Shown: piece by piece, positions 34,830 through 58,448 of the stretch
Layout of the letters: each line of letters starts with the position of its first letter
Numbering within the stretch: position 1 is the stretch's first letter
Translations under genes and position numbers: made by a program
NCBI GenBank assembly: GCA_023823795.1
Contig: CP085711.1
Location: 124,001-188,000 of the forward strand
Source of the DNA: Bacillus sp. F19
GTDB taxonomy: Bacteria; Bacillota; Bacilli; Bacillales; Bacillaceae
DNA: 64,000 nucleotides
Reading direction: 5' to 3'
The notes under the pieces: model-generated
Database searches by the model: none
The model's input: the letters and a program-made list of their open reading frames with translations, nothing else
What the model was told of the DNA's origin: nothing

Positions 34830-35894
34830 ATGATTCGACGTTCATTCCTGTCTTTGTTTATCATCTTATTATTTTTGGGGACTGCCACAACTTCGTTTGC
34901 GCATTCCGGAGGCTTCGGTTACTCGACCTTAAACGTTGATGGAAAAGAGATAAAGTATGAACTTTTTATTGATCAAAGCGACTTGTTTCAACAAGTCGAT
35001 ACCAATATGGATAATAATCTGGAGAACGAGGAACTGGCTTCGCAAAAAGAATGGATTGAATCGTATTTAAAGAAAGGTCTTCGTATAGAAACGGACTCGC
35101 TGCCCTTAAAGATGGAATTGCTTTCGATGAAAATTGAAGAAAAGAATTCAATGAGAGGGGTACTGTTTCAATTACGGTTTACCGCCGATCAAGTGATTGA
35201 ACAATTTGATCTTCATTACAATCTGGTATTTGAGGACGCTGACCCTGCTCATACGAATATACTTTTGGTTAATTCAGGAAAACAATCTTATCAGGATATA
35301 ATTGAAACAAACAAAAGAGACATTCATATCATCGTTCCCCAGTCCGAAGTTGGCGTCGCACTATGGAAATACTTTGTTCTTGGAATCGAACATATTTTGA
35401 TAGGTTATGATCATTTGCTTTTTTTGTTATCTTTGGTACTGATCGTATCTAGCTTCAAGGAAGCGTTGAAGATTGTTACTGCTTTTACAATTACCCATAG
35501 CATAACACTATTCTTGGTGGCCACCGACCGTATTCAGGTCAGTTCGCATTGGATCGAAGCTTTTATAGCGCTGACCATCTGTTATGTGGCGGTTGAAAAT
35601 CTGTTTGTTCAAAAGGGGAAATGGAGGTGGATATTGACAGCCGTATTTGGCCTGATTCACGGTATGGGTTTCGCCGGGGCTTTGGCTGAAACGGGACTTC
35701 CAAAGAGCAATCTGATTGGCACACTCCTTTCGTTTAATTTAGGCGTGGAAACGGGTCAGTTCATGGTACTGTGTCTATTACTGCCTCTCTTGATTTGGCT
35801 GCGAAGGTTCCTATGGTATCGTAAAATGATGATCTCCGCGTCTTGCCTTATTTTTGTTTTAGCATTTTATTGGTTGATTCAACGCCTGCAGTAA
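34830..35894 (+). CDS. HupE/UreJ_2-family membrane protein, paralogue 1
   Basis: 354 residues. Signal peptide (about 1-26, cleavage after SFA), an extracellular domain of about 150 residues containing an EF-hand-like loop (DTNMDNNLENEE), then about six membrane helices with family motifs FVLGIEHILIGYDHLLFLLS, FTITHSITLFL, FGLIHGMGFAGAL and FNLGVETGQ. HupE/UreJ proteins are thought to move nickel or cobalt; the role of this subfamily is not settled. GAGG seven bases before ATG 34830 sets the start. Like the other copies it follows a giant secreted enzyme. Confidence 0.85.
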   Translation: MIRRSFLSLFIILLFLGTATTSFAHSGGFGYSTLNVDGKEIKYELFIDQSDLFQQVDTNMDNNLENEELASQKEWIESYLKKGLRIETDSLPLKMELLSMKIEEKNSMRGVLFQLRFTADQVIEQFDLHYNLVFEDADPAHTNILLVNSGKQSYQDIIETNKRDIHIIVPQSEVGVALWKYFVLGIEHILIGYDHLLFLLSLVLIVSSFKEALKIVTAFTITHSITLFLVATDRIQVSSHWIEAFIALTICYVAVENLFVQKGKWRWILTAVFGLIHGMGFAGALAETGLPKSNLIGTLLSFNLGVETGQFMVLCLLLPLLIWLRRFLWYRKMMISASCLIFVLAFYWLIQRLQ

Positions 35895-36129
35895 ACCATA
35901 GCCCAAAACATGAAAAGATTGCCAACCATATGGCCGGGAAGGCTCGAGAAGTGAAATCTTTTTATTTTGTCTATGTGGTTACCCTACAAATTGAGCCATT
36001 CCTATAAGGGGATGCGTAATGCAAGTTTATTAGTAGAAGGCGACGAAGTTTCCGGAATGGTTGAAGCGAAAAGCTTGACGGCGATATAACAATCATGATC
36101 AACTCAGTGAAAATTAAAGGAGATTTGGA
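35895..36129 (+). repeat. Repeat downstream of hupE, with a small broken ORF
   Basis: The stretch from CCATAGCCCAAAACATGAAA recurs after the hupE copies at 44154, 53147 and 58451. ATG 36019 opens MRNASLLVEGDEVSGMVEAK, and another frame continues DITIMINSVKIKGDLD, so a short beta-rich protein has been frameshifted. Family not recognised. Confidence 0.6.
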
Positions 36130-36202
36130 TTAGCTTCATAAGCTAGCAATTTAAGGAAATTGACACTCTATGTTTCTATCGAGTATTTTTTGCACCAGAA
36201 CC
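36130..36202 (+). mobile_element. Solitary right end of an IS6 element
   Basis: TTAGCTTCATAAGCTAGCAA through GCACCAGAACC is virtually identical to 12114-12186. Nothing of the transposase upstream remains except its last codons. Confidence 0.85.
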
Positions 36203-36251
36203 ATATTTTCTTATCTGGTTAACCTTATAATACGATCGGGCGCGATCGTGG

Positions 36252-37492: not shown

Positions 37493-37666
37493 AAGAAAAT
37501 TAATATTTTTAAACGACTGTATTGCTGAGGCATCCTATAAAAAATTTAACAACTTTAGTTTACTCCCATCCAAACCAGGACGGGGGTATGCGTGTTAGAA
37601 GTATTAAACTTAAACAACTTATTGTAATCTTGACATTTCCTTATTGCGGGTGGTGACAGCTTCGTT

Positions 37667-38513
37667 GGTACTACCCCATCGCTATCAAGCTAACAAAATA
37701 AAATACCCCTAAAATGAAAAAATACGCTATTCTTTCTGTAGAATCATAGGAAAGGATGGCGTTTTTGTATGTCTATTTCTGTATCTGATGAATTACAACT
37801 ATTTGCTCGAGAAATTCAAGGCTTCTTATCCCCAAATTTCTTACGAGATCTTGCTAAAAATGTTGGTTTTGTCCAGCGAACTAGTAAATACCAAGCCAAA
37901 GATTTAGTTGCTTTATGTGTATGGATGAGCCAAAATGTTGCTACTACTTCTTTAACTCAGCTATCTAGCTGTTTAGAAGCATCAACAGAAGTACTCATCA
38001 GTCCTGAGGGACTGAATCAACTATTTAATAAAGCGGCCGTCCAATTTTTGCAACATATATTAGCTGAACTACTAAACCAAAAATTGGCCTCATCTATACC
38101 GATTTCTTCTCCATATACTTCTGTTTTCAAGCGTATTCGTATTTTAGATTCAACTGCATTTCAACTCCCAGATCCCTTTTCATTCGTTTATCCAGGCGCA
38201 GGAGGATGCAGCCATACAGCAAAGACACCCAAGAATTATCAAAGATTCTCCTTCGTCTGTTTAACCTCCTACAGTGTAATGGACGAAAATCTCATCGATA
38301 CGAGAAAAAAACAGTCTTTGATATATTAGGTGTCGTTTACAATTTTACCATATCTGAAGATCTAGCTGCTTAATTAAAAAAAGACAAAACCCATTAGAGT
38401 TTATTTCGTATGCGAATTTTTAAATAATCTACACTGATCCCCTATAAAAAGTAAAAAAACTCTCCTGAAAATTTCCTAATGCAGTCTTAGCTTGATAGCG
38501 ATGTGGTACTACC
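37667..38513 (+). mobile_element. Internally deleted IS4-family element
   Basis: Left end GGTACTACCCCATCGCTATC (37667) and right end AGCTTGATAGCGATGTGGTA (38489-38513) form terminal inverted repeats with two mismatches. Length is about 847 bp against roughly 1.4-1.5 kb expected. The right end abuts a PTS IID fragment exactly as at 1001/1002, so both positions descend from one insertion. Confidence 0.85.
37769..38373 (+). pseudogene. IS4 transposase with central deletion
   Basis: The N-terminal 150 residues are intact (MSISVSDELQLFAREIQGFL to [16 protein letters not shown]). At about 38220 the frame jumps into the C-terminal tail ([20 protein letters not shown], stop 38371), which is out of frame. 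About 600 bp, including two catalytic acidic residues, are missing. The start at 37769 is preceded by GGAAAGGATGG. Confidence 0.9.
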
Positions 38514-39205: not shown

Positions 39206-39212
39206 TTTAATT

Positions 39213-42200
39213 ATGCTATTTCTTAAAAGGCTAAAAAAGCCATTTCTATCACTCATGCTGGTGAATGTAGCCCTGACGGGTGTAGTAGGCAGTACTTCGG
39301 CAGAAAGCTCTGCAGCAGTGACAGAAAACACTACGGAAGAACCTATCTTCAGCTTCATGTCAATGTCGGACACGCATAGCGATACGGTTAAAACGGCTAA
39401 AGCTGTAACGGATGCTAAAAATAATAATGCCAGTGCAATATTTTTACCCGGGGATATAACCAATCTCGGGGATAGCGGTGAATATGACGCCATAAGAAAT
39501 GCTATCGATTCTGTAAAAGATCATCCGCCGGTGTATTATGCAATCGGAAATCATGAATATGATTGGCAGTCGGATTATAATGTAGCGAAGAACAGATTTA
39601 TAGAAAAGGCAGAAATACCAGAAAAGAAGGTGTATTACCACCGGGAAATACAAGGCTATGACTTCATAATTTTAGGGTTTGATAAGAAACCGTCCTATAC
39701 CGCGTATATGTCCGACGAACAGTTAGCCTGGTTGGAAAGCACGCTTGCTGCAAATGCTGAACCGGACAAGCCGATTTTTGTGTTCACGCATGAGCCTATT
39801 CACCAGACCGTATCCAAGTCATATTCTTCGAATGGTATTTATCAAAGAAATGCACAGGAACAGGAGTTCCGAAAAATCCTTGAAAAATATCCACAGGTTA
39901 TTTTAACAACAGGACATCTTCACGACGATACTAAGATACAAGGTAACATGTACGCGAATAAATTCACTGCATTAAGAGACGGTGCCGTTTTAAATAGTCA
40001 AGCTATGATGTTTGATGTATATAAAGACAAGGTGCATATAAAGGGAAGGGATGTAACTACACAAAAAACCATATGGGAAGGTACTATGAGTCTGCACCCG
40101 AATACAACCGGCATGTATGAAGCCGAGGATAGTGTGTTCGCATATGCTACCTCTGGCGACGACATAAATCCGTCCGGCGGCAAGTATGTGAATATGAACC
40201 ATGTAAGCGCATATATCGAGTCGCTCAAGGTTGACGGAGGAGCTTCTGGCGGCAATAAAATATTGAAAATTAGGTATGCTACCGATGCTGCCAATGCTAC
40301 CAAGGGAATATATGTAAATGGGGCCAAAGTACAGACGCTCAGCTTTCCGACTACCGGAAGCATGAGCTCGTATAACGAATTGGCGGTACCTGTTGAGCTG
40401 AATCCGGGTCCAAATAACAAGATCGTCATACAAAGCGATGGCAACGCAGCGGGCGTGAACATAGATAAAATCCAAATTATGGATAGTAAAGATCCCAAAA
40501 ATATGTGGGGATTTAACGGCAATGGCAACGACAGTATCAAGAATGGGATTAATGCAACCTTGCATGGAAGTGCTGCCTATGATAAGACGGATAAAATGGA
40601 AGGTTCCGCTTCACTCAGCCTGAACGGTGCTGACGGTAATTATGCAAGTACAGATCTTGTATCCAACAAACAGAACAATGTAACGCTAACAACCTGGGTG
40701 AAGTGGAATGGTGCAACCTCAGGATCTCAACAAATATTGTCCAACGGAGATGGCCTTACCAATGGATATTCAATCATGCTGGATCATGACCAAGGCGATA
40801 AGGTGTCCATTGCGATCAACGGGCAGACGATCCTTGGATCGCAGACTGCTTTGACGGCGGGCCAATGGACCAATATCACGGCGGCAAGAAGAAACGGCAC
40901 CTGGGAGCTTTATATCAATGGCAAGAGCACCCCGGTAACCAATAATACAACAGATCCTTCTACGCCAACAACGGGAACGTATATCGGTGCGGACAGTAGA
41001 GGCCAACAAAGCTTCAATGGACGTATTGATGCAGTAAGGGTTTACAATCAAGCATTGTCTACCGATCAGATCATGGCAATGGCCAACGAGACTTCTAACG
41101 TTAAGTTACAAAGCATCGAAATAACTAAACTGCCAACAAAGTTGAATTACCTTCAGGGAGATTGGTTGAATATAGACGGGCTGGTTGTGACAGGCACTTA
41201 CAGCGATGGAACAACAAAAGTGGAGAACGTAACGGATGATCATATTACCGGCTTTGATAGTGTCACTCTTAAAGAAGGAGTGCCACTGACTGTGACTGTA
41301 GGTGGAAAGACAGCCAGCTTTAATGTAAATATTTTAGATGTAATGCCTGGTTCAGCATCGGTGCCAGGAAGGATAGAAGGTGTAAACTACAATTCGAAAA
41401 AACCGGATTCTGTATTTAGAAATTTTCCGGGTAATGATGGCGGACCCACATGGTTGGTGATGGGTATAGAAAAAGGCGAATGGATGGAATATAACGTAGA
41501 TGTGGCAAAATCGGGATTCTATCAAGTAAATTACAGGGTGGCAACATGGCGTCCGGCAGAGGTTGAATTCCAGGTAGATGGAGTACCTCAAACGAGAACC
41601 CCATTTTCAACCGGGAGTTGGAGACCTGGCACTTTTTCTTCCGATACGATCAAACTGAGTGAAGGCTCACATAAAATAAGGCTGAATGCAAATACAGGTT
41701 TTTGGAGATTGCTCTGGTTTGAATTGACAGAGGTTCAAGAAAAAAAATTGAACAGCATCACTGCGCCTGCTGACATAGACGCAGCAATCGGAACGGCGAA
41801 GACAGCGGACGCCCTTGGACTGCCAAAGACAGTATCCTTGGATACCGATTTAGGAAATGTGAATGCCAATGTGACATGGAATGTAGATGCTTCAAACTAT
41901 GATCCCACTGTAAAGACTGGACAGACCTTCAATGTAAATGGAACTGTAACTTTGCCAACTGGGGTGGCAAATCCCAATAACGTGCCTTTGACAACAAGCA
42001 TTAGAGTAACTGTTAATAGGATCCCAGTGGGGACCGCCGCAGTTACCGCTTCATCGATTTACAATGCCAGTTTTACTCCCGACAAAGTGTTTGATGGCAT
42101 AGGGCAAGCGGTTAATGGCGAATGGGCCTCCAAGGGAGAACAGAATCCATGGATCCAGGTGAATTGGACGACGAATCAAACGTTCAACAAGATTATCTTT

Positions 42201-42419
42201 CATGATCGGCCCAACACAGCGGACTGGGCGCCCGGCGGAACGCTTACCTTCAGCGACGGAAGCACTTTGACGGTTTCAGGAATCCCGAATGACGGGAGCG
42301 CTTATTCTGTAACTTTCCCTGACAAGACGGTGACATGGATCAAATTCCAGGTATCCGGTGGAAGCGGGTCAAATGTAGGTTTGTCGGAAATGAAAATTTT
42401 AGCGCCGGTGGATAAGTAA
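39213..42419 (+). CDS. Secreted multidomain metallophosphoesterase, MPE2
   Basis: 1068 residues. The signal peptide (about 1-35) differs from those of MPE1 and MPE3 (KKPFLSLMLVNVALTGVVG), while the following domain is near-identical. Calcineurin-like metal ligands: D53-x-H55, G80-D81, GNHE, H in FTHEP and GHLH. Next come CBM6/35-like, LamG, Big_3, CBM6-like and Big_4 domains and, instead of a second LamG, a discoidin-like domain (AAVTASSIYNASFTPDKVFD). AGGAGG precedes the ATG. TAA 42417 ends the protein after APVDK, but the frame continues (VPEVEMTVLGDNSIY). An exported phosphatase or phosphodiesterase of unknown substrate. Confidence 0.87.
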   Translation: MLFLKRLKKPFLSLMLVNVALTGVVGSTSAESSAAVTENTTEEPIFSFMSMSDTHSDTVKTAKAVTDAKNNNASAIFLPGDITNLGDSGEYDAIRNAIDSVKDHPPVYYAIGNHEYDWQSDYNVAKNRFIEKAEIPEKKVYYHREIQGYDFIILGFDKKPSYTAYMSDEQLAWLESTLAANAEPDKPIFVFTHEPIHQTVSKSYSSNGIYQRNAQEQEFRKILEKYPQVILTTGHLHDDTKIQGNMYANKFTALRDGAVLNSQAMMFDVYKDKVHIKGRDVTTQKTIWEGTMSLHPNTTGMYEAEDSVFAYATSGDDINPSGGKYVNMNHVSAYIESLKVDGGASGGNKILKIRYATDAANATKGIYVNGAKVQTLSFPTTGSMSSYNELAVPVELNPGPNNKIVIQSDGNAAGVNIDKIQIMDSKDPKNMWGFNGNGNDSIKNGINATLHGSAAYDKTDKMEGSASLSLNGADGNYASTDLVSNKQNNVTLTTWVKWNGATSGSQQILSNGDGLTNGYSIMLDHDQGDKVSIAINGQTILGSQTALTAGQWTNITAARRNGTWELYINGKSTPVTNNTTDPSTPTTGTYIGADSRGQQSFNGRIDAVRVYNQALSTDQIMAMANETSNVKLQSIEITKLPTKLNYLQGDWLNIDGLVVTGTYSDGTTKVENVTDDHITGFDSVTLKEGVPLTVTVGGKTASFNVNILDVMPGSASVPGRIEGVNYNSKKPDSVFRNFPGNDGGPTWLVMGIEKGEWMEYNVDVAKSGFYQVNYRVATWRPAEVEFQVDGVPQTRTPFSTGSWRPGTFSSDTIKLSEGSHKIRLNANTGFWRLLWFELTEVQEKKLNSITAPADIDAAIGTAKTADALGLPKTVSLDTDLGNVNANVTWNVDASNYDPTVKTGQTFNVNGTVTLPTGVANPNNVPLTTSIRVTVNRIPVGTAAVTASSIYNASFTPDKVFDGIGQAVNGEWASKGEQNPWIQVNWTTNQTFNKIIFHDRPNTADWAPGGTLTFSDGSTLTVSGIPNDGSAYSVTFPDKTVTWIKFQVSGGSGSNVGLSEMKILAPVDK

Positions 42420-42940
42420 GTTCCTGAGGTCGAGATGACCGTACTGGGAGACAACAGCATTTATAAAGATTCCGTGGATTTGACGCCTAGTTTGCATTAA
42501 CCGACAACCTGTCGGGGGTCGATAACAGCAAAACGACGATGACACTCGATTCGCATTCTTACCAAATCGGAACGACGATCCCGCTTTATACGTTGCCGCT
42601 TGGGCAGCATACGCTTGTTGTATCCTCCAGCGACTTGGCAGGCAACCAGGTAAGCAAAACCGTTCACTTTCAGACAGTAGCCAGCATCGATTCCTTAAAG
42701 GCGGTGGTGACACGCATTGTCGATACCAAATGGATCGACAATGCCGGAATTGCCGATAGCCTGCAGGACAAATTGGCAAACAACGAGCTAAAGGGCTTTG
42801 TGAATGAAGTGAAGGCTCAAAGCGGAAAGCACATATCAGGTGAAGCGGCAAAATATTTGCTGCGGGACGCTCAATATTTAGACGCTCAATATTCATTGAC
42901 ACAATTACGATTCGCTCAAGGGATTAGATTTAAACTTTGA
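42420..42940 (+). pseudogene. Broken C-terminal extension of MPE2 with FIMAH domain
   Basis: In frame after TAA 42417 comes VPEVEMTVLGDNSIYKDSVD. A deletion near 42484 then shifts the frame; the third frame resumes at TMTLDSHSYQIGTTIP and runs through an Ig-like domain (GQHTLVVSSSDLAGN) into FIMAH (SIDSLKAVVTRIVDTKW, SGKHISGEAAKYLLRDAQYL) to TGA 42940. This is the most complete example of the lost tail. The piece from ATG 42539 alone lacks a start signal. Confidence 0.85.
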
Positions 42941-43067
42941 TGAAAAGAGGTCCCGCAGCAAAATATTTGCTGCGGGACGCTCTATATTTAGACGCTCAAT
43001 ATTTATTGACACAATTACGATTCGCTCAAGAGATTAGATTTAAACTTTGATGAAAAGAGGTCTCGCT
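42845..43067. repeat. 110-bp tandem duplication at the FIMAH/hupE junction (copy 2)
   Basis: Units begin at 42845 and 42955 and end in TGAAAAGAGGTC, the hupE ribosome binding site. Same as at 5465 and 57142. Confidence 0.85.
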
Positions 43068-44150
43068 TTGAAAATACGTGCATTCCTGTCCTTGTTCATA
43101 GTCACATTAATATTTTGTGCGAATGCCAGCACTTCATTTGCCCATACCGACAAAAGTAGGGGTTACTCGATTTTAAACATTAAAGGGAATACGATTGACT
43201 ATGAACTTTTTCTTGATCAAATAGACATGCTGGAACAATTTGATACCGACAAGGATAAACATCTGGAGAACGAGGAACTGTCCTCGCAGAAAGAAAGAAT
43301 CGAATCGGTATTACAGAAAGATCTTCGTATAGATGTGGATTCGAAGCCATTAACGATGGAAATACTTTCGATGGAGTTGGGAGAAAAGGCTTCCACGATC
43401 GGCGTAATGTTTAAACTAAGGTTAACCGCCGATGAAGCGATCGAACAATTTAATCTTCATTACAATCTGATGTTTGAAGGTGCGCCTCTTCATACGAATG
43501 TACTGTTGGTCCATGCAGGGGAATATTTCTATCAGAATATTCTTGATACCAAAAAAAGAGATGTTCAGATCACCATTGCTCAGCCTGAAAATATTGCTCA
43601 GCCTGAAAGTGAATCCGTCCTATGGAAATACTTTGTACTTGGAATCGAACACATTTTGACCGGGTTCGATCATATGCTGTTTTTGTTATCCTTAGTATTA
43701 ATCGCATCTCGCTTCAAGGATGCGTTGAAAATTGTTACTGCTTTTACAATCGGCCACAGCATAACACTATTCTTGGTGACCACCGACCGTATTCAGGTCA
43801 GTTCGCATTGGGTCGAAGTTTTTATAGCGCTGACCATCTGTTATGTGGCAGTAGAAAATATGTTTGTTCAAAAGGTGAAATGGCGGTGGCTATTGACAGC
43901 CATATTTGGCCTGATTCACGGTATGGGTTTCGCCGGGGGTTTGACTGAAATAGGACTTCCAAAGAGCAATCTGATTGGCACACTCCTTTCGTTTAATTTA
44001 GGCGTGGAAACGGGTCAGTTCATAGTACTGTGTCTATTACTGCCTCTCTTGATTTGGCTGCGAAGGTTCCCATGGTATCGTAAAATGATGATCTCCGCGT
44101 CTTGCCTTATTTTTGTTTTAGCATTTTATTGGTTGATTCAACGTCTGTAG
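43068..44150 (+). CDS. HupE/UreJ_2-family membrane protein, paralogue 2
   Basis: 360 residues from TTG 43068. I prefer this start because GAGG lies seven bases upstream and it aligns with ATG 34830 of paralogue 1; ATG 43050 has no ribosome binding site. A signal peptide is followed by an extracellular domain with a perfect EF-hand loop DTDKDKHLENEE. The membrane part has LGIEHILTGFDHMLFLLS, FTIGHSITLFL, LIHGMGFAGG and NLGVETGQ. Identical in protein sequence to 57366-58448. Possible metal transporter of unknown specificity, always next to a secreted MPE. Confidence 0.88.
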   Translation: MKIRAFLSLFIVTLIFCANASTSFAHTDKSRGYSILNIKGNTIDYELFLDQIDMLEQFDTDKDKHLENEELSSQKERIESVLQKDLRIDVDSKPLTMEILSMELGEKASTIGVMFKLRLTADEAIEQFNLHYNLMFEGAPLHTNVLLVHAGEYFYQNILDTKKRDVQITIAQPENIAQPESESVLWKYFVLGIEHILTGFDHMLFLLSLVLIASRFKDALKIVTAFTIGHSITLFLVTTDRIQVSSHWVEVFIALTICYVAVENMFVQKVKWRWLLTAIFGLIHGMGFAGGLTEIGLPKSNLIGTLLSFNLGVETGQFIVLCLLLPLLIWLRRFPWYRKMMISASCLIFVLAFYWLIQRL

Positions 44151-46724: not shown

Positions 46725-46727
46725 TTC

Positions 46728-47717: not shown

Positions 47718-48529
47718 ACCGCAGAAAGAGAACCGTCGTGTATTCCATCATTTCGCTCGCTTTATTGCTCGTGCCAATTATTCTCAGTGTATTGTTAAGC
47801 AACGATCAATTATCCACCCAATTAACGGAGAGAAACGAGCCCCCATCATGGGGAAACCCATTCGGTACGGATTGGCTCGGCCGAGATATGCTTACCCGGA
47901 CTATGAAAGGATTAGCGTTAAGCCTAGGGGTAGGCATGACTGCAGCTTCAATAAGCGTGCTCATAGCCGGAACGCTAGGCTTAATGGCAGCAACATTAGG
48001 ACAAACAGTGGATCGAATCATCACTTGGCTCGTTGATTTATTTCTTAGCATTCCGCATTTAGTCATGCTTATTCTAATCGCTTTCGTTTCAGGCGGAGGG
48101 GTGCGAGGCGTGATTATTGCCGTAGCGCTGACGCATTGGCCTAGTCTCACGCGAGTCATTCGGGCTGAAATTCTATATTTAAAGTCATGTGAATTCGTAA
48201 TGATCTCCAAACACATGGGCAGGTCGAAGTGGTGGATTGCCACCAGACACTTTCTACCGCACTTAATACCGCAATTTATCGTCGGTACGCTGCTTGCATT
48301 CCCTCATGCTATTTTGCACGAGGCTGCAATTACATTCTTGGGAATGGGGCTGTCGCCGCATCAACCCGCGATCGGTATTATTCTTTCGGAATCTATGAGA
48401 TATTTATCGACCGGCATGTGGTGGCTCGCTTTCTTCCCCGGGTTATGCTTGCTTATCGTCGTTCGAGCTTTCGACGTACTCGCGGAGAATCTTTATGCGC
48501 TGATCAATCCGAATCGTTCACAGGAGTAG
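47714..48529 (+). CDS. ABC transporter permease 2 (NikC/DppC type)
   Basis: 271 residues. GNPFGTDWLGRDMLTRTMKG is the DppC/NikC signature, and the EAA loop reads SKHMGRSKWWIATRHFLPHL. Pairs with permease 1 to form the channel. Confidence 0.9.
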   Translation: MNRRKRTVVYSIISLALLLVPIILSVLLSNDQLSTQLTERNEPPSWGNPFGTDWLGRDMLTRTMKGLALSLGVGMTAASISVLIAGTLGLMAATLGQTVDRIITWLVDLFLSIPHLVMLILIAFVSGGGVRGVIIAVALTHWPSLTRVIRAEILYLKSCEFVMISKHMGRSKWWIATRHFLPHLIPQFIVGTLLAFPHAILHEAAITFLGMGLSPHQPAIGIILSESMRYLSTGMWWLAFFPGLCLLIVVRAFDVLAENLYALINPNRSQE

Positions 48530-48541
48530 AGAGGAGGCATC

Positions 48542-49477
48542 ATGAGTTTGCCTTTGCTGGAAGTCAACAATGTATCCATTTCATTTATTCAATACGAGAC
48601 AGGTCTCAAACAGGTTAACGTGCCTGTAATTAAAAATCTTTCGTTATCTGTAAACCCTGGTGAGATCGTTGCAGTAGTCGGAGCCAGTGGTTCCGGGAAA
48701 AGCCTGCTTGCCCATGCGATTCTCGGAATTTTACCCAAGAACGCTAGAGTTACAGGTCAACTAACTTTTGACGGAGAACCGCTAACCTCCTCTCTAATTA
48801 AGAAGCTGAGAGGAAGAGAGGTGGCGTTAGTGCCGCAGTCGGTTCAGTTCCTAGACCCTCTTATGCGAGTAGGTCATCAAGTGAAGCAGGCGGTGCGCAC
48901 GGGAGATCCGGAAGAGGAGCAAATCAAGGCATTTCAGAGATACCGTTTAGGCCCTAAAACAGCTAGACGCTTTCCGCATCAGTTGTCCGGAGGAATGGCT
49001 AGGCGTGTCCTTGTTTCCATTGCAACAGTAAGCGGAGCAAGATTGCTCATTGCTGATGAGCCTACTCCCGGATTGGATGAGGCGGTAATACAAGAGACGC
49101 TTCTATCGTTCAAGGAGCTAGCTACGAGAGGATCGGCTATCATATTCATTACGCACGATCTGGAAGCGGCGCTGAAAATCGCTGATCGAGTAGCCGTGTT
49201 TTATTCCGGCACTACGGTGGAAGTAGCTCCTTCGACAGACTTTGAGGGAATGGGAGAGAATCTGCGTCACCCGTACACCCAGGCATTATGGAATGCATTG
49301 CCACAGAATCAGTTTTCCGTCCTGCAACAAAATTTCGGCGGAAAAGGGGAACCTCTCTCTATCAATGGTTGTATGTTTGCAGATAACTGTGGCAGTGCGA
49401 CATACGAGTGCAGTCAGATATTTCCGGAATTACGACCTTTACGCAATGGGATGGTGAGATGCTGTCATGCAACTTGA
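48542..49477 (+). CDS. ABC transporter ATP-binding protein 1 (NikD/DppD type)
   Basis: 311 residues. Walker A VGASGSGKS, Q-loop VPQSVQFLDP, a signature variant LSGGMARRVLVSIA and Walker B LLIADEPTPGLDE. The C-terminal region has the cysteine-containing oligopeptide-type extension (GCMFADNCGSATYEC). The normal LSGGQ/MxQR reads LSGGMARR here. The end overlaps the next start by 11 bases. Confidence 0.9.
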   Translation: MSLPLLEVNNVSISFIQYETGLKQVNVPVIKNLSLSVNPGEIVAVVGASGSGKSLLAHAILGILPKNARVTGQLTFDGEPLTSSLIKKLRGREVALVPQSVQFLDPLMRVGHQVKQAVRTGDPEEEQIKAFQRYRLGPKTARRFPHQLSGGMARRVLVSIATVSGARLLIADEPTPGLDEAVIQETLLSFKELATRGSAIIFITHDLEAALKIADRVAVFYSGTTVEVAPSTDFEGMGENLRHPYTQALWNALPQNQFSVLQQNFGGKGEPLSINGCMFADNCGSATYECSQIFPELRPLRNGMVRCCHAT

Positions 49478-50078
49478 GGCCAGAAACATAAGCAAGCGTT
49501 ACGGAAAAGATCAGTGGTTATTTCGTCATGCGACCGTTCAGGTTCACAGTGGTGAAGTGGTTGGAATGATAGGTCCAAGCGGTTGCGGCAAAACAACCTT
49601 CTGCCGCATCCTTGCAGGCTATGAAGCCGGGAAAGAAGGAGATGTTCTATTAAACGGACAAGCTTTGCCTAGTTCGGGCTATCGGCCGATTCAACTCATC
49701 TTTCAGCATCCTGAACGGGCAATAAATCCGCGTTGGAGAATCGAGCAGATCCTCAATGAGGGCTGGAATCCGGACGAAGAATTGCTTGAGTTATTAGGAA
49801 TCAGTCAACGCTGGTTCGGACGTTGGCCTTCCGAGCTTTCCGGAGGGGAATTGCAGCGAATTTGTATTGCGCGAGCGCTTGCTCCGCAAACCCGATTTTT
49901 TGTTGCGGACGAGATGACGACGATGTTAGACGCGATAACGCAAGCGCAGATATGGAAAACGGTGCTTGAGGTCGCTGAGAAACGTTCTATGGGATTGCTG
50001 ATCGTCAGTCACGACAGACATCTTATCCATCGAATTTGCACTAGAGTCGTTGATTTCACTCAATTTCTAACAAATTAA
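49467..50078 (+). CDS. ABC transporter ATP-binding protein 2 (NikE/DppF type)
   Basis: 203 residues. Walker A IGPSGCGKTT, signature LSGGELQRICIARAL, Walker B FFVADEMTTMLD, H-loop VSHDRH. It is short for a DppF-type protein and lacks the C-terminal oligopeptide domain, as many nickel-type NikE proteins do. Confidence 0.9.
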   Translation: MQLEARNISKRYGKDQWLFRHATVQVHSGEVVGMIGPSGCGKTTFCRILAGYEAGKEGDVLLNGQALPSSGYRPIQLIFQHPERAINPRWRIEQILNEGWNPDEELLELLGISQRWFGRWPSELSGGELQRICIARALAPQTRFFVADEMTTMLDAITQAQIWKTVLEVAEKRSMGLLIVSHDRHLIHRICTRVVDFTQFLTN

Positions 50079-50089
50079 GAGGTGATGAA

Positions 50090-50284
50090 ATGAGAAAATA
50101 TTGGAAGAGAATCGGAATGCTTCTTATCGCGTACCTTGTGCTCGCCGGACATTCATCTTGTGAAGATATAAAAACGCGTCCTGGACAAGAGAAAATTGAA
50201 GAAGGTACGCTGGATTCTGAAAAGATTCCTGCAGACGCTCAAAAACCATTTCAAAGTTACAAGGAGAAGGAGAGGGGGCAATAA
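50090..50284 (+). CDS. Small exported protein of unknown function
   Basis: 64 residues: MRKYWKRIGMLLIAYLVLAG forms a signal-like hydrophobic N-terminus, followed by HSSC and a charged tail. The Cys position recalls a lipobox but HSSC is a poor match. AGAGGTGATGAAATG gives a ribosome binding site. It lies between the importer and the ATPase with 1-11 base gaps. Family not recognised. Confidence 0.6.
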   Translation: MRKYWKRIGMLLIAYLVLAGHSSCEDIKTRPGQEKIEEGTLDSEKIPADAQKPFQSYKEKERGQ

Positions 50285-50285
50285 C

Positions 50286-50546
50286 GTGGATATTATAAAT
50301 AACGTGGATATTATGCTGCACGAAGGTAATCACGGTATTTTAACTCGTCATCATCATAATAAGAATAATCCCAGGGGCAATTACCGGCCATTAGGCGGGG
50401 GAAACGAGCCGGATGATGACGATTATAACGATTCCGATAAGAATGAAAGGAAAGATGGCAGCGAGGTCAGAAATAAAATCATCTCAGCCGTGATCGTGAT
50501 CGTCTCGTTGAGTTGTTATATAGTCTGGGAGTTTGGTCAGCTATGA
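50286..50546 (+). CDS. Small His/Asp-rich membrane protein
   Basis: 86 residues from GTG 50286, which has GGAGAAGGAGAGGGGG seven bases upstream. The longer frame from ATG 50196 overlaps the previous gene and has no such site. The N-terminal half is rich in metal ligands (HEGNHGILTRHHHNKNN, EPDDDDYND) and the C-terminal 22 residues form a membrane helix. Its stop overlaps the ATPase start (ATGA), implying coupled translation. It may bind a metal for the ATPase; function is inferred from composition and position. Confidence 0.65.
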   Translation: MDIINNVDIMLHEGNHGILTRHHHNKNNPRGNYRPLGGGNEPDDDDYNDSDKNERKDGSEVRNKIISAVIVIVSLSCYIVWEFGQL

Positions 50547-52450
50547 ACATGGAGCGAATTCGAAAAATTTATATTTGGTTTTTGCCGGTCGTGGTCGGGT
50601 TTGCATTGTTGCTTTCATATATTCCTAGCGTTGGAAACATAGCAGGATTTCCCCCAGCCTTCTATGCGATGCTGATGGGGGGCGGCATTATCGCGTACCG
50701 CGCTTTGTTGGCAATTCTGGACACGCGCACGATAACGGCCGGAACGCTGGTTGTAATCACGATGGCAGGCTGCGCTTATCTAGGATTTTACATAGCAGCG
50801 GCGCTTGTTGCACTTATGATGCTTATCGGCGAGCTACTGGAAGAAATTACTCTCTATAGAACGAGACAGTCTTTTGATGAATTGCTGGCGATGGTTCCTG
50901 ACGAAGCTACCGTGTGGAGAAATCATTCGTGGGAGCGAGTACCTACCGACATGCTGACGGAAGGCGACCGTGTACTCGTCAAAGCCGGGGAGCGCATCCC
51001 TGCAGACGGCGTTGTTGAAGCGGGAACCGCATCTGTGAACGAATCTGCCTTGACCGGAGAGCCTATGCCTCAAGATAAATATATAGGCAGCACAGTGTTC
51101 CAAGGAACGATCAACGAATTCGGGTCCATGGAGTTCACGGTTCAAAAGACGGGTGATCATACGACGATGGGGAAAATCATCACGTCAGTGCTTGAGGCGC
51201 AAGAAACGAAAGGCTCGATGCAACGGCTGGCAGACAGGTTTGCAGTATATTTCACGCCGTTAATTCTGGGTATTGCTTCGCTAGCTTGGCTAATAACGGG
51301 CGACCTGATCCGAACAATGACTGTGCTGGTTATCGCTTGCCCTTGTGCGCTCGTCTTAGCGACACCTACTGCAGTGGTCGCCAGCGTCGGAAACGTAGCG
51401 AAGCGAGGCGTGCTTGTGAAGGGAGGGCGTGCAATGGAGGCGCTGTCCAAAGTCACTATTGTTTGTTTCGACAAAACGGGCACGCTTACCGAGGGGAAGC
51501 CAAAGCTGAAGAAGATTGTGCCCTTCGGCAATTACACGGAAGCGGAGTTGCTTCGTTATGCGGAAGGGGCCGAGCGTTACTCGGAGCATCCGATCGGCCA
51601 TGCGATACTAGAGTCCGCCAGGGCCAATGGTTTCGTTTGCGCTGAGGAGCCGCTGGATTTCACTCAAGAAATAGGGGTAGGCGTAAGAGCGAAGATCGAG
51701 GACAAACTGGTTTGGGTAGGCAATGAAAGGCTGTTGAAGCATATCGACGGTATTTCGGAAGAAGCGAAACTCTTTCTGCAGGAACATAGAAGCGGGACCG
51801 CATTACTGGTTATTGCGGAGGGCGCCGCGATCGGGGGGCTTGTAGTTGGCGATACGGTAAGGGAAGGCGCCGTCAAAGCTCTTGAGGACATTCGCAGGCT
51901 CGGTGTTTCGAAGGTCGTTCTGTTAACCGGCGACAGCCATGGGGCGGCTGCGGAATTACAACGTGATTTGAAAATGGATGAAGTTCATGCGCGTCTCCTA
52001 CCTAACGATAAGCTTGCCGTAATAAAACGATATCAACGGGAAGGACATACGGTATCGATGGTCGGCGAGGGGATTAATGACGCTCCTGCGCTCATGGCTG
52101 CAGACGTTGGAATTGCGATGGGAGCGGCAGGGACGGACCTTGCGATCCAATCCTCGCAGGTTGCACTTATGGGCGATCGTTTAGAGAAACTGCCTGAGGT
52201 TATGCAAATCAGTCGTAGAACGATGTTTATCGTCCGACAAAATATTTGGATCTTTGCCGTAGCGTTTAATGTAGTCGGCATATTGCTTGCCGCAGCCGGC
52301 TTCATCGATCCGGTCGTCGGAGCAGCCATCCATAACGTTGCTTCTCTGTTCGTCGTCATCAACTCCGCCAGATTAATTCGATACGGCCCGAAAAATAATC
52401 CCCTGAACAAAGGTAAAACGTTACTTGGGAATAGAACAAATTATGTGTGA
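50543..52450 (+). CDS. P1B-type heavy-metal-translocating ATPase
   Basis: 635 residues from ATG 50543 (MNMERIRKIY). An upstream TTG at 50513 lies inside the preceding gene and is not preferred. Motifs: TGEP in the actuator domain, C266-P267-C268 metal-site helix, phosphorylated D310 in DKTGTLTEG, SEHPIGHAI. The hinge motif reads GEGINDAP instead of GDGINDAP (Glu 509). No N-terminal HMA domain, only one or two extra helices. The last helix has HNVASLFVVINSARL. It exports a soft or transition metal; the ion cannot be told from sequence alone. Last gene of the metal cluster. Confidence 0.9.
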   Translation: MNMERIRKIYIWFLPVVVGFALLLSYIPSVGNIAGFPPAFYAMLMGGGIIAYRALLAILDTRTITAGTLVVITMAGCAYLGFYIAAALVALMMLIGELLEEITLYRTRQSFDELLAMVPDEATVWRNHSWERVPTDMLTEGDRVLVKAGERIPADGVVEAGTASVNESALTGEPMPQDKYIGSTVFQGTINEFGSMEFTVQKTGDHTTMGKIITSVLEAQETKGSMQRLADRFAVYFTPLILGIASLAWLITGDLIRTMTVLVIACPCALVLATPTAVVASVGNVAKRGVLVKGGRAMEALSKVTIVCFDKTGTLTEGKPKLKKIVPFGNYTEAELLRYAEGAERYSEHPIGHAILESARANGFVCAEEPLDFTQEIGVGVRAKIEDKLVWVGNERLLKHIDGISEEAKLFLQEHRSGTALLVIAEGAAIGGLVVGDTVREGAVKALEDIRRLGVSKVVLLTGDSHGAAAELQRDLKMDEVHARLLPNDKLAVIKRYQREGHTVSMVGEGINDAPALMAADVGIAMGAAGTDLAIQSSQVALMGDRLEKLPEVMQISRRTMFIVRQNIWIFAVAFNVVGILLAAAGFIDPVVGAAIHNVASLFVVINSARLIRYGPKNNPLNKGKTLLGNRTNYV

Positions 52451-53709: not shown

Positions 53710-56700
53710 ATGCTATTTCTTAAAAGGTTAAAAATTCTAACACTAACGATGATAGCTATTCTAGTAGGCCTTAGTGCTGTGCCTTTTCAGGGAAAAAGCT
53801 ATGCAGAAGGGACAGAAAACACTACGGAAGAACCTATCTTCAGCTTCATGTCAATGTCGGACACGCACAGCGATACGGGTAAAACGGCTAAAGCTGTAAC
53901 GGATGCTAAAAATAATAATGCAAGTGCAATCGTTTTAGTCGGGGATATAACCAATCTCGGGGATAGCGGTGAATATGACGCCATAAAAAGGGCTATCGAT
54001 TCTGTAAAAGATCATCCGCCGGTGCATTATACAATGGGAAATCATGAATATGATTGGCAGTCGGATTATAATGTGGCGAAGAACAGATTTATACAAAAGG
54101 CAGGAATACCAGAAAATAAGGTGTATTACCACCGGGAAATACAAGGCTATGACTTCTTATTTTTAGGGTTTGATAGGAAACCGGCCAATATCGCGTATAT
54201 GTCCGACGAACAGTTAGCCTGGTTGGAAAGCAAGCTTGCTGAAAATGCTGAACCGGACAAGCCGATTTTTGTGTTCACGCATAATCCTATTTACCAGACC
54301 GTATCCAAGTCATTTTCGGATAATTATGGTCAAAATATGATACAGGAACAGAAGTTCAGAAATATCCTTGAAAAATATCCACAGGCTATTTTAACAACAG
54401 GACATCTTCACGACGATGTTAAGATACAAGGCAACATGTACACCAATAGATTTACTGCATTAAGAGATGGTGCCGTTTTAAATAGTCAAGCTATGATGTT
54501 TGATGTATATAAAGACAAGGTGCATATAAAGGGAAGGGATGTAACTACACAAAAAACCATATGGGAAGGTACTATGAGTCTGCACCCGAATACAACCGGC
54601 ATGTATGAAGCCGAGGATAGTGTATTCGCATATGCAACCTCTGGCGACGACATAAATCCGTCCGGCGGCAAGTATGTGAATATGAACAATGGAAAAGCAT
54701 ATATCGAGTCGCTCAAGGTTGACGGAGGAGCTTCTGGCGGCAATAAAATATTGAAAATAAGGTATGCTACCGATGCTGCCAATGCTACCGAGGGATTATA
54801 TGTAAATGGAGCCAGAGTACAGACGCTCAGCTTTCCGACTACCGGAAGCATGAGTTCGTATAACGAATTGGCGGTACCTGTTGAGCTGAATCCGGGTTCA
54901 AATAACAAGATCGTCATAAAAAGCGATGGCAACGCAGCGGGCGTGAACATAGATAAATTCCAAATTATAGATAGTGCCGATCCCAGCACGATGTGGGGAT
55001 TTAACGGCAATGGCAACGACAGTATCAAGAATGGGTTTAATGCAACCTTGCATGGAAGTGCTGCCTATGATACGACGGATAAAATGGAAGGTTCCGCTTC
55101 GCTCAACCTGAACGGTGCTGACGGTAATTATGCAAGTGCAGATCTTGTATCCACAAAAACAGACAATGTAACGCTAACAGCCTGGGTGAAGTGGAATGGC
55201 GCAGCTTCGAAATCGCAGCGGATCTTGTCCAATGGCGATGGCGATGACAACGGTTATTCTATTATGCTGGATCATGCCAATGGGGATAAGGTATCACTCG
55301 TGGTCAACGGTAAGCCGATTGCGAGATCGGAGACTGCTTTGACTGCAGGACAATGGACCAATATTACTGCGGCAAGAAGAAGCGGTACCTGGGAGCTTTA
55401 TATCAATGGCAACAGCGTACCAGTAACCAATAAGGAAGCAACTCCTGCCACACCTACAAAGGGAACGTATATCGGTGCAAACAGTCAAGGCAAACAAAGC
55501 TTCAATGGACGTATTGATGCAGTAAGGGTTTACAATCAAGCATTGTCTACCGATCAGATCATGGCAATGGCCAACGAGACTTCTAACGTTAAGTTACAAA
55601 GCATCGAAATAACTAAACTGCCAACAAAGTTGAATTACCTGTATGCAGATGCGCTTCTTTTAAATGGGCTGGTTGTGACAGGCACTTACAGCGATGGAAC
55701 AACAAAAGTGGAGAACGTAACGGGTGATCATATTACCGGCTTTGATAACGCCAATCTTAAAGCAGGATTGCCACTGACTGTGACTGTAGGTGGAAAGACA
55801 GCCAGCTTTAATGTAAATATTTTAGATGAATTGCCTGGTTCAGCATCGGTGCCAGGAAGGATAGAAGCTGCAAACTACAATAAGAAACAGGGTCTTGTAT
55901 TTAGATATCAAGGGACTAATGATGGCGGACCCGCATATCGAGTGAATTATATAGAAAAAGACGACTGGATGGAATATAACGTAGATGTGGCAAAATCGGG
56001 ATTCTATCAATTAGATTACAAGGTGGGAACAGCACCGGGTAAAACGGGAGAGGTTGAATTCGAGGTAGATGGAGTACCTCAAACGAGAACCTCATTCTCA
56101 ACCGGGGGTTGGGACAACTATGTTATTAAATCCGAAACGGTCGCACTGAGTGAAGGCTCACATAAAATAAGGCTGAATGTAACTCAACCTTTTTGGGTTT
56201 TTCGCTGGTTTGAATTGACAGAGGTTCAAGAAAAAAAATTGAACAGCATCACTGCGCCTGCTGACATAGACGCAGCCATCGGAACGGCGAAGACAGCGGA
56301 CGCCCTTGGACTGCCAAAGACAGTAGACTTGGTTACCGATTCAGGCAGCTTGAATGGGAAGGCCAAGGTGACATGGAATGTAGATGCTTCAGACTATGAT
56401 CCTACGGTAAAGACTGTACAGACCTTTACTGTAAATGGAACTGTAACTTTGCCAACTGGGGTGGCAAATCCCAATAACGTGCCTTTGACAACAAGCATTA
56501 GAGTAACTGCTAATAGGATCCCAGTGGGGACCGCCGCAGTTACCGCTTCATCGATTTACAATGCCAGTTTTACTCCCGACAAAGTGTTTGATGGCATAGG
56601 GCAAGCGGTTAATGGCGAATGGGCCTCCAAGGGAGAAAAGAATCCATGGATCCAGGTGAATTGGACGACGAATCAAACGTTCAACAAGATTATCTTCTAT

Positions 56701-56916
56701 GATCGGCCTAATTTAGTGGACTGGGCGACCGGCGGAACGCTTACCTTCAGCGACGGAAGCACTTTGACGGTTTCAGGAATCCCGAATGACGGGAGCGCTT
56801 ATTCTGTAACTTTCCCTGACAAGACGGTGACATGGGTCAAATTCCAGGTATCCGGTGGAAGCGGATCAAATGTCGGTTTGTCGGAAATGAAAATTTTAGC
56901 GCCGGTGGATAAGTAA
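53710..56916 (+). CDS. Secreted multidomain metallophosphoesterase, MPE3
   Basis: 1068 residues with a signal peptide (1-33) matching MPE1. Calcineurin-like ligands D51-x-H53, G78-D79, GNHE, THNP and GHLH. The domain series is the same as MPE2: CBM6/35-like, LamG, Big_3, CBM6-like, Big_4, discoidin-like. The LamG segment at about residues 497-545 (AASKSQRILSNGDGDDNGYS) differs clearly from MPE1 and MPE2 within otherwise near-identical sequence, indicating gene conversion or module exchange. TAA 56914 sits at the same position as in MPE2, and the frame continues beyond it. Probable role: extracellular phosphate-ester cleavage. Confidence 0.87.
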   Translation: MLFLKRLKILTLTMIAILVGLSAVPFQGKSYAEGTENTTEEPIFSFMSMSDTHSDTGKTAKAVTDAKNNNASAIVLVGDITNLGDSGEYDAIKRAIDSVKDHPPVHYTMGNHEYDWQSDYNVAKNRFIQKAGIPENKVYYHREIQGYDFLFLGFDRKPANIAYMSDEQLAWLESKLAENAEPDKPIFVFTHNPIYQTVSKSFSDNYGQNMIQEQKFRNILEKYPQAILTTGHLHDDVKIQGNMYTNRFTALRDGAVLNSQAMMFDVYKDKVHIKGRDVTTQKTIWEGTMSLHPNTTGMYEAEDSVFAYATSGDDINPSGGKYVNMNNGKAYIESLKVDGGASGGNKILKIRYATDAANATEGLYVNGARVQTLSFPTTGSMSSYNELAVPVELNPGSNNKIVIKSDGNAAGVNIDKFQIIDSADPSTMWGFNGNGNDSIKNGFNATLHGSAAYDTTDKMEGSASLNLNGADGNYASADLVSTKTDNVTLTAWVKWNGAASKSQRILSNGDGDDNGYSIMLDHANGDKVSLVVNGKPIARSETALTAGQWTNITAARRSGTWELYINGNSVPVTNKEATPATPTKGTYIGANSQGKQSFNGRIDAVRVYNQALSTDQIMAMANETSNVKLQSIEITKLPTKLNYLYADALLLNGLVVTGTYSDGTTKVENVTGDHITGFDNANLKAGLPLTVTVGGKTASFNVNILDELPGSASVPGRIEAANYNKKQGLVFRYQGTNDGGPAYRVNYIEKDDWMEYNVDVAKSGFYQLDYKVGTAPGKTGEVEFEVDGVPQTRTSFSTGGWDNYVIKSETVALSEGSHKIRLNVTQPFWVFRWFELTEVQEKKLNSITAPADIDAAIGTAKTADALGLPKTVDLVTDSGSLNGKAKVTWNVDASDYDPTVKTVQTFTVNGTVTLPTGVANPNNVPLTTSIRVTANRIPVGTAAVTASSIYNASFTPDKVFDGIGQAVNGEWASKGEKNPWIQVNWTTNQTFNKIIFYDRPNLVDWATGGTLTFSDGSTLTVSGIPNDGSAYSVTFPDKTVTWVKFQVSGGSGSNVGLSEMKILAPVDK

Positions 56917-57237
56917 GTTCCTGAGGTCGAGATGACCGTACTGGGAGACAACAGCATTTATAAAGATTCCGTGGATTTGACGTCTAAGTTTGCATTAACC
57001 GACAACCTGTCGGGGGTCGATAACAGCAAAACGACGATGACACTCGATTCGCATTTTTACAAAATCGGAATGACGATCCCGCTTCAATCTAAAGGGCTTT
57101 GTGAATGAATTGAATGCTCAAAGCGGGAAGCACATATCAGGTGCGGCAAAATATTTGCTACGGGACGCTCAATATTTAGACGCTCAATATTCATTGACAC
57201 AATTACGATTCGCTCAAGGGATTAGATTTAAACTTTG
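56917..57237 (+). pseudogene. Broken C-terminal extension of MPE3 with partial FIMAH
   Basis: In frame after TAA 56914 the sequence reads VPEVEMTVLGDNSIYKDSVD and KFALTDNLSGVDNSKTTMTL up to TGA near 57105. A deletion near 57087 then joins it to the end of FIMAH (KGFVNELNAQSGKHIS, YLLRDAQYL) in another frame. Less complete than the MPE2 tail. Confidence 0.8.
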
Positions 57238-57365
57238 ATGAAAAGAGGTCCCGCGGCAAAATATTTGCTGCGGGACGCTCTATATTTAGACGCTCAATAT
57301 TTATTGACACAATTACGATTCGCTCAAGAGATTAGATTTAAACTTTGATGAAAAGAGGTCTCGCT
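57142..57365. repeat. 110-bp tandem duplication at the FIMAH/hupE junction (copy 3)
   Basis: Same two-unit structure as at 5465 and 42845, ending with the hupE ribosome binding site AAAAGAGG. Confidence 0.8.
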
Positions 57366-58448
57366 TTGAAAATACGTGCATTCCTGTCCTTGTTCATAGT
57401 CACATTAATATTTTGTGCGAATGCCAGCACTTCATTTGCCCATACCGACAAAAGTAGGGGTTACTCGATTTTAAACATTAAAGGGAATACGATTGACTAT
57501 GAACTTTTTCTTGATCAAATAGACATGCTGGAACAATTTGATACCGACAAGGATAAACATCTGGAGAACGAGGAACTGTCCTCGCAGAAAGAAAGAATCG
57601 AATCGGTATTACAGAAAGATCTTCGTATAGATGTGGATTCGAAGCCATTAACGATGGAAATACTTTCGATGGAGTTGGGAGAAAAGGCTTCCACGATCGG
57701 CGTAATGTTTAAACTAAGGTTAACCGCCGATGAAGCGATCGAACAATTTAATCTTCATTACAATCTGATGTTTGAAGGTGCGCCTCTTCATACGAATGTA
57801 CTTTTGGTCCATGCAGGGGAATATTTCTATCAGAATATTCTTGATACCAAAAAAAGAGATGTTCAGATCACCATTGCTCAGCCTGAAAATATTGCTCAGC
57901 CTGAAAGTGAATCCGTCCTATGGAAATACTTTGTACTTGGAATCGAACACATTTTGACCGGGTTCGATCATATGCTGTTTTTGTTATCCTTAGTATTAAT
58001 CGCATCTCGCTTCAAGGATGCGTTGAAAATTGTTACTGCTTTTACAATCGGCCACAGCATAACACTATTCTTGGTGACCACCGACCGTATTCAGGTCAGT
58101 TCGCATTGGGTCGAAGTTTTTATAGCGCTGACCATCTGTTATGTGGCAGTAGAAAATATGTTTGTTCAAAAGGTGAAATGGCGGTGGCTATTGACAGCCA
58201 TATTTGGCCTGATTCACGGTATGGGTTTCGCCGGGGGTTTGACTGAAATAGGACTTCCAAAGAGCAATCTGATTGGCACACTCCTTTCGTTTAATTTAGG
58301 CGTGGAAACGGGTCAGTTCATAGTACTGTGTCTATTACTGCCTCTCTTGATTTGGCTGCGAAGGTTCCCATGGTATCGTAAAATGATGATCTCCGCGTCT
58401 TGCCTTATTTTTGTTTTAGCATTTTATTGGTTGATTCAACGTCTGTAG
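57366..58448 (+). CDS. HupE/UreJ_2-family membrane protein, paralogue 3
   Basis: 360 residues from TTG 57366, identical in protein sequence to the copy at 43068. GAGG seven bases upstream supports this start; ATG 57348 lacks one. Signal peptide, extracellular EF-hand-like loop, membrane part with the HupE motifs. Complete identity over 14 kb distance shows recent duplication or ongoing gene conversion. Confidence 0.88.
   Translation: MKIRAFLSLFIVTLIFCANASTSFAHTDKSRGYSILNIKGNTIDYELFLDQIDMLEQFDTDKDKHLENEELSSQKERIESVLQKDLRIDVDSKPLTMEILSMELGEKASTIGVMFKLRLTADEAIEQFNLHYNLMFEGAPLHTNVLLVHAGEYFYQNILDTKKRDVQITIAQPENIAQPESESVLWKYFVLGIEHILTGFDHMLFLLSLVLIASRFKDALKIVTAFTIGHSITLFLVTTDRIQVSSHWVEVFIALTICYVAVENMFVQKVKWRWLLTAIFGLIHGMGFAGGLTEIGLPKSNLIGTLLSFNLGVETGQFIVLCLLLPLLIWLRRFPWYRKMMISASCLIFVLAFYWLIQRL

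Follow-up and report, generated by a model that had tools for sequence, protein, structure and literature searches.

HupE/UreJ-2 permeases with a predicted anglerase-type outer domain adjoin secreted phosphoesterases in Bacillus sp. F19 and related Bacilli

A 64,000-nucleotide stretch of the Bacillus sp. F19 genome (contig CP085711.1, positions 124,001 to 188,000; hereafter the window) raises the question of why genes for a membrane protein of the HupE_UreJ_2 family (PF13795), here called hupE, recur beside genes for large secreted enzymes. The window is part of a 507 kb contig, one of the two that make up the 5.59 Mb genome, and contains three intact hupE genes and two remnants, as identified by Pfam scan and tblastn (Table 1). 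All three intact products pass the curated PF13795 cut-off of 24.5 bits, and their Pfam scan returned two HupE_UreJ families and nothing else. A sequence-only reading of the window had described an exoenzyme with a FIMAH or dockerin tail ahead of hupE, or of its remnant, in four places and proposed that the membrane protein serves the enzyme through metal supply, anchoring or processing. The survey of relatives presented here confirms that the two genes co-occur outside this region, and it is very likely that hupE is functionally tied to a phosphoesterase.

Matches to PF13795 above the cut-off are patchily distributed. Counting the own genome each time, they occur in 5 of 81 genomes at family level, in 18 of 398 at class level and in 33 of 397 at order level. 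We surveyed 61 hupE genes with matches of at least 138 bits, excluding the own genome and setting aside partial (G808, G688, G820), weak (G544, G796) and sub-cut-off matches. A secreted phosphoesterase-type metallohydrolase adjoins hupE in 46 of these loci: 27 giant CehA/McbA-PHP proteins, five smaller PHP-type proteins and 14 calcineurin-like enzymes. Thirty loci have a divergent protein of 1,701–3,215 amino acids with a signal-peptide-like start. Twenty-seven of these giants form one cluster, with 25 above the NF038032 (CehA/McbA PHP) cut-off of 80 bits and two that have no listed match (L089, L094) assigned by cluster and FNHP motif; the other three (L051, L107, L109) carry a calcineurin-like domain. 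The smaller PHP-type partners (PHP500 group; 511–519 amino acids, same strand as hupE) have an HHVHS motif recognized by eye and fall under the NF038032 cut-off (67.6 bits for L084, 47–51 bits for the other four). Ten further loci have an adjacent calcineurin-like enzyme according to a home-made profile that draws on 13 Pfam-called domains for both building and testing; they include a purple acid phosphatase (L068) and four enzymes of the MetallophosN type (MPN) downstream of hupE (L056 and L108 profile-checked). In one more locus, cut in the fetched stretch, the enzyme was visible in a later neighbourhood check.

The association also holds from the side of the enzyme. Among the CehA/McbA matches above the cut-off in 34 hupE-bearing genomes, 25 of 28 adjoin hupE. 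A reverse check across the 397 order genomes (open reading frames (ORFs) of at least 1,578 amino acids, E 1e-18, with the best five or fewer candidates per genome scored) found hupE beside 20 of at least 26 CehA/McbA ORFs and not beside six. Second and third neighbours of hupE gave no calcineurin-like match with the home-made profile (0 of 177). Calcineurin-like genes occur at about 3.4 per Mb (at least 335 matches in about 98 Mb of 22 genomes), a density that, calculated from the matches listed and assuming about one gene per kb, predicts about 0.4 such genes in 122 neighbour places where 14 were observed; kinship among the genomes inflates these control figures. Outside the window, the own genome has four further full PF13795 matches. 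In this genome a calcineurin-like enzyme follows hupE at two loci (L010, L012), precedes it at one (L011) and is located farther upstream at another (L008). We also checked 38 named loci separately, five of which duplicate survey loci. Seventeen have a calcineurin-like gene within 4 kb upstream, 10 are heavily masked there and 11 have none, several of the latter being contig ends or fragments.

The remaining 15 survey loci comprise one that is masked and 14 with other neighbours. Five of these exceptions are metal-related: three CbiX-type chelatases (L061 by profile, two by cluster), one CopC and one Fe/Mn superoxide dismutase (SOD). Three have a ytxC-like gene (once as second neighbour; the one tested was under its cut-off), and the others have a DUF3500 protein, an M23 peptidase, a DUF2334 protein (one each) or other genes (three). 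In a tree of the hupE products, five clades are each characterized by a main enzyme type and a gene order of their own, and the nine members of a sixth have CbiX, CopC, ytxC or other neighbours. Two of the 14 exceptions (L057, L067) group with the partners of the giants. The tree has 81 rows (94 distinct proteins minus L082, which lacks the N-terminus, and most named loci, plus seven from plasmid records). The tree was built quickly and has long branches. Some of its labels are wrong (L069 is marked 'CbiX', and L036, L037 and the copy in L011, where metallophosphoesterases are present, are marked 'other'), which makes its count of 18 changes rough. The enzyme lies upstream, downstream or divergent depending on the clade, which rules out strict gene order as a rule; the order proposed from the window is kept through its duplicated units but does not hold across clades.

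Inside the window, the recurrence of the pair is mostly segmental duplication. The three enzyme-FIMAH fragment-hupE units (about 1.6–5.8, 39–44.3 and 53.5–58.6 kb) are copies of each other, hupE copies B and C differ at 1 of 1104 bases, and transposase genes are also present. Furthermore, synonymous divergence (dS) is 0.06–0.14 between the window hupE at 43047–44150 and those of L013, L014, L015 and L039. These loci belong to other named genera, Paenisporosarcina, Peribacillus and Neobacillus among them, and have different flanks, so the enzyme-hupE unit has probably spread by recent horizontal transfer. Both the duplicated units with their transposases and the low dS would suit a functionless hupE that hitch-hikes on the duplication and transfer of enzyme genes. 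However, hupE is under purifying selection, separate clades have separate enzymes and gene orders, and His and Asp residues are invariant in 94 of 94 proteins. Hitch-hiking is thus largely refuted, and we give it almost no credence.

Tails on the enzymes do not account for the pairing either. The unit enzyme belongs to the calcineurin-like phosphoesterases and carries a signal peptide as well as domains of carbohydrate-binding type, and the enzymes ahead of 5667, 43047 and 57345 are copies of this one metallophosphoesterase; the fourth, before 34830, is GH38-like. All three FIMAH pieces are located between metallophosphoesterase and hupE. Because the FIMAH and dockerin-like pieces are out of frame or beyond a stop, and none is on an intact enzyme, they are rubble of former C-termini. 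Hence the hupE genes or remnants and the FIMAH or dockerin-like pieces are present in the four places, but as detached debris rather than enzyme tails. A whole-genome scan, which missed the 42539 fragment that the Pfam scan of the window detects, found two FIMAH places, the stronger of which (C1:2405036) is about 52 kb from the nearest hupE. Nor does a dockerin predict hupE, since none follows the dockerin-tailed S8 protease at 17031–21167. FIMAH or dockerin as the common factor is therefore ruled out, and the phosphoesterase-type enzyme takes that place. In L092, a dockerin-tailed S8 protease (8482–12534) lies directly downstream of hupE, unlike the S8 protease of the window.

The tight pairing with surface proteins could also mean that the permease helps to anchor, process or secrete the enzyme, any metal being structural only. 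The partners, though, already carry anchors themselves, and these vary in kind (LPXTG-type, SLH, dockerin, FIMAH), which leaves the anchoring or processing proposed earlier without support and makes this explanation very improbable. The third role on offer, metal handling, is favoured by the features of the permease itself. A His directly follows the predicted signal peptide in 92 of 94 proteins and an Ala precedes the site in 93 of 94; every intact copy of the window is among them. In an AlphaFold2 (AF2) model of copy B, the outer part is predicted to be a beta-sandwich Ang domain that matches 9gce, an Ang-1 fold that a sequence search of the PDB did not recover. The next fold matches of the model, at 6–7% identity, are ZrgA (V. 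cholerae, zinc-bound) and PA4063 (P. aeruginosa, with zinc, according to the PDB titles), whose matched chains lack a HupE part. Taken together, we assign the intact hupE products to the anglerase-type permeases with high confidence.

The outer domain also contains the EF-hand-like loop that had been noted in the extracellular part: DTDKDKHLENEE in two window copies and DTNMDNNLENEE in the 34830 copy. All three intact copies match a 12-residue loop pattern (D1, D/N3, D/N/G5, hydrophobic 8, E12). A Gly at position 6 is a further feature of EF-hand loops; the window copies have Lys or Asn there, and many relatives have the Gly, for example DENQDGYMKENE. In the model, the loop (residues 34–45) sits between strands 2 and 3 and is predicted to be flanked by helices 26–33 and 43–60 (with a break at 49) in a helix-loop-helix arrangement. 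The strict pattern occurs within the first 170 amino acids of 52 of 93 proteins versus 5 of 262 control stretches, in all 29 partners of giant enzymes and in six of seven proteins of other phyla. The loop probably binds calcium.

Regulation adds a link to phosphate. We searched for tandem TT[ACT]A[CT]A repeats, which we take to be the Bacillus PhoP box motif. Three or more occur in 6 of 30 intergenic stretches between hupE and a giant, compared to 0 of 133 other intergenic stretches that served as controls in these loci (Fisher p 2.5e-5) and 0 of 71 low-GC controls (p about 5e-4). All six are in divergent promoters. In a set of 55 regions the same six stretches were the only ones with triple repeats, where shuffles expect 0.22, and no triple repeat was found in same-strand promoters or in ten window genes tested. 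The contrast between 6 of 30 and 0 of 133 points to phosphate control for a subset of pairs. Transport of the enzyme's product, or of phosphate or calcium, with the permease taking up what the enzyme releases and His and EF loop only stabilizing the outer domain, would fit these repeats and the phosphoesterase pairing. Yet the His at residue 1 (His1), the Ang-1 fold and the His and Asp of the membrane part indicate a metal, and some other neighbours are metal proteins, making product uptake improbable.

Two things stay the same across the pairs: a permease with an outer domain of transition-metal type, and a Sec-exported phosphoesterase that depends on metal and whose catalytic fold varies (all 45 partners tested look Sec-like). 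Because the folds differ, a shared cofactor is preferred over specific contact. The sequences themselves show the pairing, the His behind the signal peptide, the loop, the promoter repeats and the fold match of the model, whereas we infer metal and calcium binding, the direction of transport and delivery to the enzyme. Cleavage of the signal peptide would make His residue 1 of the outer beta-sandwich domain, which could hold a transition metal there as in its solved relatives, anglerases being described with His1 and an Asn or Asp as the ligands, while the EF-hand-like loop would bind calcium. The multi-helix HupE/UreJ-2 domain, with its conserved His and Asp, would provide a metal path, and the permease may supply or hold metal at the membrane surface for the neighbouring phosphoesterase during its exit, in a pair that would serve phosphate scavenging. 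Delivery is favoured by the precedent of the TerC proteins MeeF and MeeY, described as metalating Sec-exported enzymes in B. subtilis (PMC10550928). We hold the full statement, delivery included, tentatively and at somewhat less than even confidence. A more elaborate version, in which the EF loop is an extracellular switch of a calcium-sensing permease whose His hands metal to the adjacent Sec-exported enzyme, and bacteria took up the module on separate occasions for calcineurin-like and for PHP enzymes that scavenge phosphate, seems unlikely.

Several observations weigh against delivery to a phosphoesterase. Copy D is preceded by a GH38-like enzyme, unlike the other copies. The lax EF pattern is found in none of the five PHP500-associated proteins and is absent in 17 of the 38 members of the window's label group; in the MPN group the loop is absent or degenerate, with one lax match in seven judged spurious. 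Most shared promoters (24 of 30) are without three PhoP-like repeats. A search with consensus strings upstream of 61 hupE genes gave no box for Zur, Fur or MntR and one weak match for PerR. Among 40 other calcineurin-like genes away from hupE (ORFs of at least about 380 amino acids, hand-picked among the matches listed and sorted with a crude script), 30 look Sec-exported or membrane-bound, two Tat-like and eight without a signal. Calcineurin-like enzymes thus have no general need for hupE, and export through Tat or Sec does not divide those with hupE from those without. Six of six Pseudomonadota plasmid records, among seven annotated plasmid records examined outside Bacillota, have no phosphoesterase beside hupE; DUF4331 proteins are nearby in three and a dual-specificity protein phosphatase is two genes off in one. 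In the literature, HupE relatives figure as permeases for nickel (Brito 2010 as cited in PMC12537917) and anglerases as uptake devices, a direction opposite to supply. In the phosphorus study of Synechococcus PCC 7002, the HupE/UreJ mutant A0340 was among those scored, with 101.87% and 119.47% in two columns of a table, and according to the authors A0340 is possibly detrimental in adaptation to phosphorus deficiency (PMC11358556). The result is a further hint tying the family to phosphorus, and its sign gives no support to a need for HupE there.

The description of HupE as an uptake permease, together with the 30 of 40 enzymes that manage without hupE, makes metal import a near rival. The anglerase would catch a transition metal outside and pass it inward, with the enzyme co-induced by phosphate shortage or freeing metal from metal-rich phosphate polymers. 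This is the published model for anglerases and HupE (PMC12537917), and it accommodates the PhoP-like repeats in 6 of 30 promoters and the 5 of 14 exceptions beside CbiX, CopC or SOD, which handle or use metal. However, import alone leaves it unexplained why the partners are extracellular metalloenzymes of two catalytic folds that are unrelated, and no metal-regulator box was found ahead of the 61 hupE genes. We regard import as a serious possibility, if a doubtful one. Of the proposal that the membrane protein serves the enzyme, the functional tie finds support beyond the region; service by delivery may be the form it takes, with import close behind.

Comparison with known systems locates what is new. 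The statement that no role had been described came close to the truth. Anglerases of the types Ang-1 and Ang-2, fused to HupE/UreJ-2 permeases, are the subject of a 2025 paper (PMC12537917, Nat Commun), which places Ang-1 particularly in Pseudomonadota and Ang-2 in Actinomycetota, and lists metallophosphatases among neighbours of actinobacterial Ang-2. The window and survey proteins, in contrast to these groups, are from Bacillota and carry an EF-hand-like loop, and the main text of that paper does not contain the words EF-hand, calcium or phosphoesterase. Compared with its account, the pairing here spans most surveyed loci and two catalytic folds. Literature titles and abstract openings, mostly outside subscription papers, yielded no HupE-phosphoesterase pairing in Bacillota. 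Rhizobium HupE shares the HupE/UreJ membrane domain and, as described, serves hydrogenase (Brito 2010 as cited in PMC12537917), whereas the window proteins add the domain with His1 and the EF loop. If our preferred reading is right, the likeness to TerC is that of a membrane metal protein serving Sec-exported metalloenzymes. TerC proteins, as described, are Pfam03741 members, general and secretosome-linked (PMC10550928), whereas hupE has a likely client next door and an outer Ang domain; the window proteins do not belong to Pfam03741 and would at most work like TerC. How exported metalloenzymes are loaded with metal is an open question to which TerC proteins are one recent answer, and a permease with an outer metal-binding-type domain beside its likely client in many Bacilli offers a tractable client-partner pair. 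These data extend the anglerase family to Bacillota, with an added calcium-type site, and connect phosphate scavenging with a protein that commonly bears the annotation of a nickel-type HupE/UreJ permease.

Table 1. Coordinates of hupE genes, enzymes and related features in the window.
Feature	Position	Strand	Basis
Unit A secreted metallophosphoesterase, LamG + CBM6 + Big_3	1814..5278	+	Pfam Metallophos 51.1 bits
FIMAH fragment ahead of hupE remnant	5357..5557	+	tblastn with 42539 ORF, 92.5%
hupE 5' remnant, first 38 codons	5667..5780	+	tblastn 94.7% identity
GH38-like protein, LamG + F5/8C, ahead of copy D	29519..34582	+	Glyco_hydro38C2 43.0, F5_F8_type_C 100.6 bits
Dockerin-like remnant, frame differs from GH38-like gene	~34651..34761	+	three-frame translation by eye
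hupE copy D, intact, anglerase-type HupE_UreJ_2	34830..35894	+	PF13795 159.7 bits; alignment
Unit B secreted metallophosphoesterase, LamG + CBM6 + DUF7402	39213..42419	+	Pfam Metallophos 42.0 bits
FIMAH-bearing fragment, frame differs from enzyme	42539..42940	+	Pfam FIMAH 27.9 bits, cut-off 24.8
hupE copy B, intact HupE_UreJ_2	43047..44150	+	PF13795 162.3 bits; AF2 model, 9gce match
hupE 3' remnant, last 48 codons	52997..53140	+	tblastn 95.8% identity
Unit C secreted metallophosphoesterase	53710..56916	+	Pfam Metallophos 50.9 bits
FIMAH fragment, shorter	57089..57235	+	tblastn 94%
hupE copy C, intact HupE_UreJ_2, protein same as copy B	57345..58448	+	PF13795 162.3 bits
Predicted N-terminal His codons	copy D 34902-34904; copy B 43143-43145; copy C 57441-57443	+	
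EF-hand-like loops	copy D 34998-35033; copy B 43242-43277; copy C 57540-57575	+	
PhoX and two metallophosphoesterases with Tat-like leaders	59335-60771, 8222-10828, 61686-63632		

The window is rich in phosphoesterases. They include a PhoX alkaline phosphatase and two metallophosphoesterases with Tat-like leaders (by eye) that have no hupE of their own. Further metal-type genes lie between two hupE copies, at 45111–52450: a five-gene Nik/Opp-type ABC transporter (four genes scanned; top NCBIfam matches nickel or oligopeptide, all under cut-off) and, at 559 bits against the TIGR01525 cut-off of 346, a heavy-metal P-type ATPase.

Elsewhere, the exported giants of one family (L104, L126, L127 and sister loci L110–L125) combine LTD, OB/DUF5689 and CehA/McbA PHP domains, sometimes with a 5'-nucleotidase. 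Profile-scanned giants also have nuclease- or 5'-nucleotidase-like parts, and some end in an LPXTG-type or LPxTATN-type sorting signal; the family probably degrades extracellular nucleic acids or phosphoesters. An ArsP_1 permease and DUF1980 gene pair stands beside hupE in two unrelated clades (L030–L033; L095, 7538–9527, and six sister loci; profile-checked in L031 and L095 alone). In one family of genomes, hupE lies between a CbiX-type chelatase and a gnd-like gene (L061, L062, L071) or near a gnd-like gene where CbiX was not found (L069), likely a cobalt or nickel context. Among the plasmid records, a Deinococcus plasmid has a PHP-type protein resembling the 511–519 amino acid group directly upstream of hupE, and an unannotated Paenibacillus record has a 763 amino acid ORF with a dockerin-like end after hupE.

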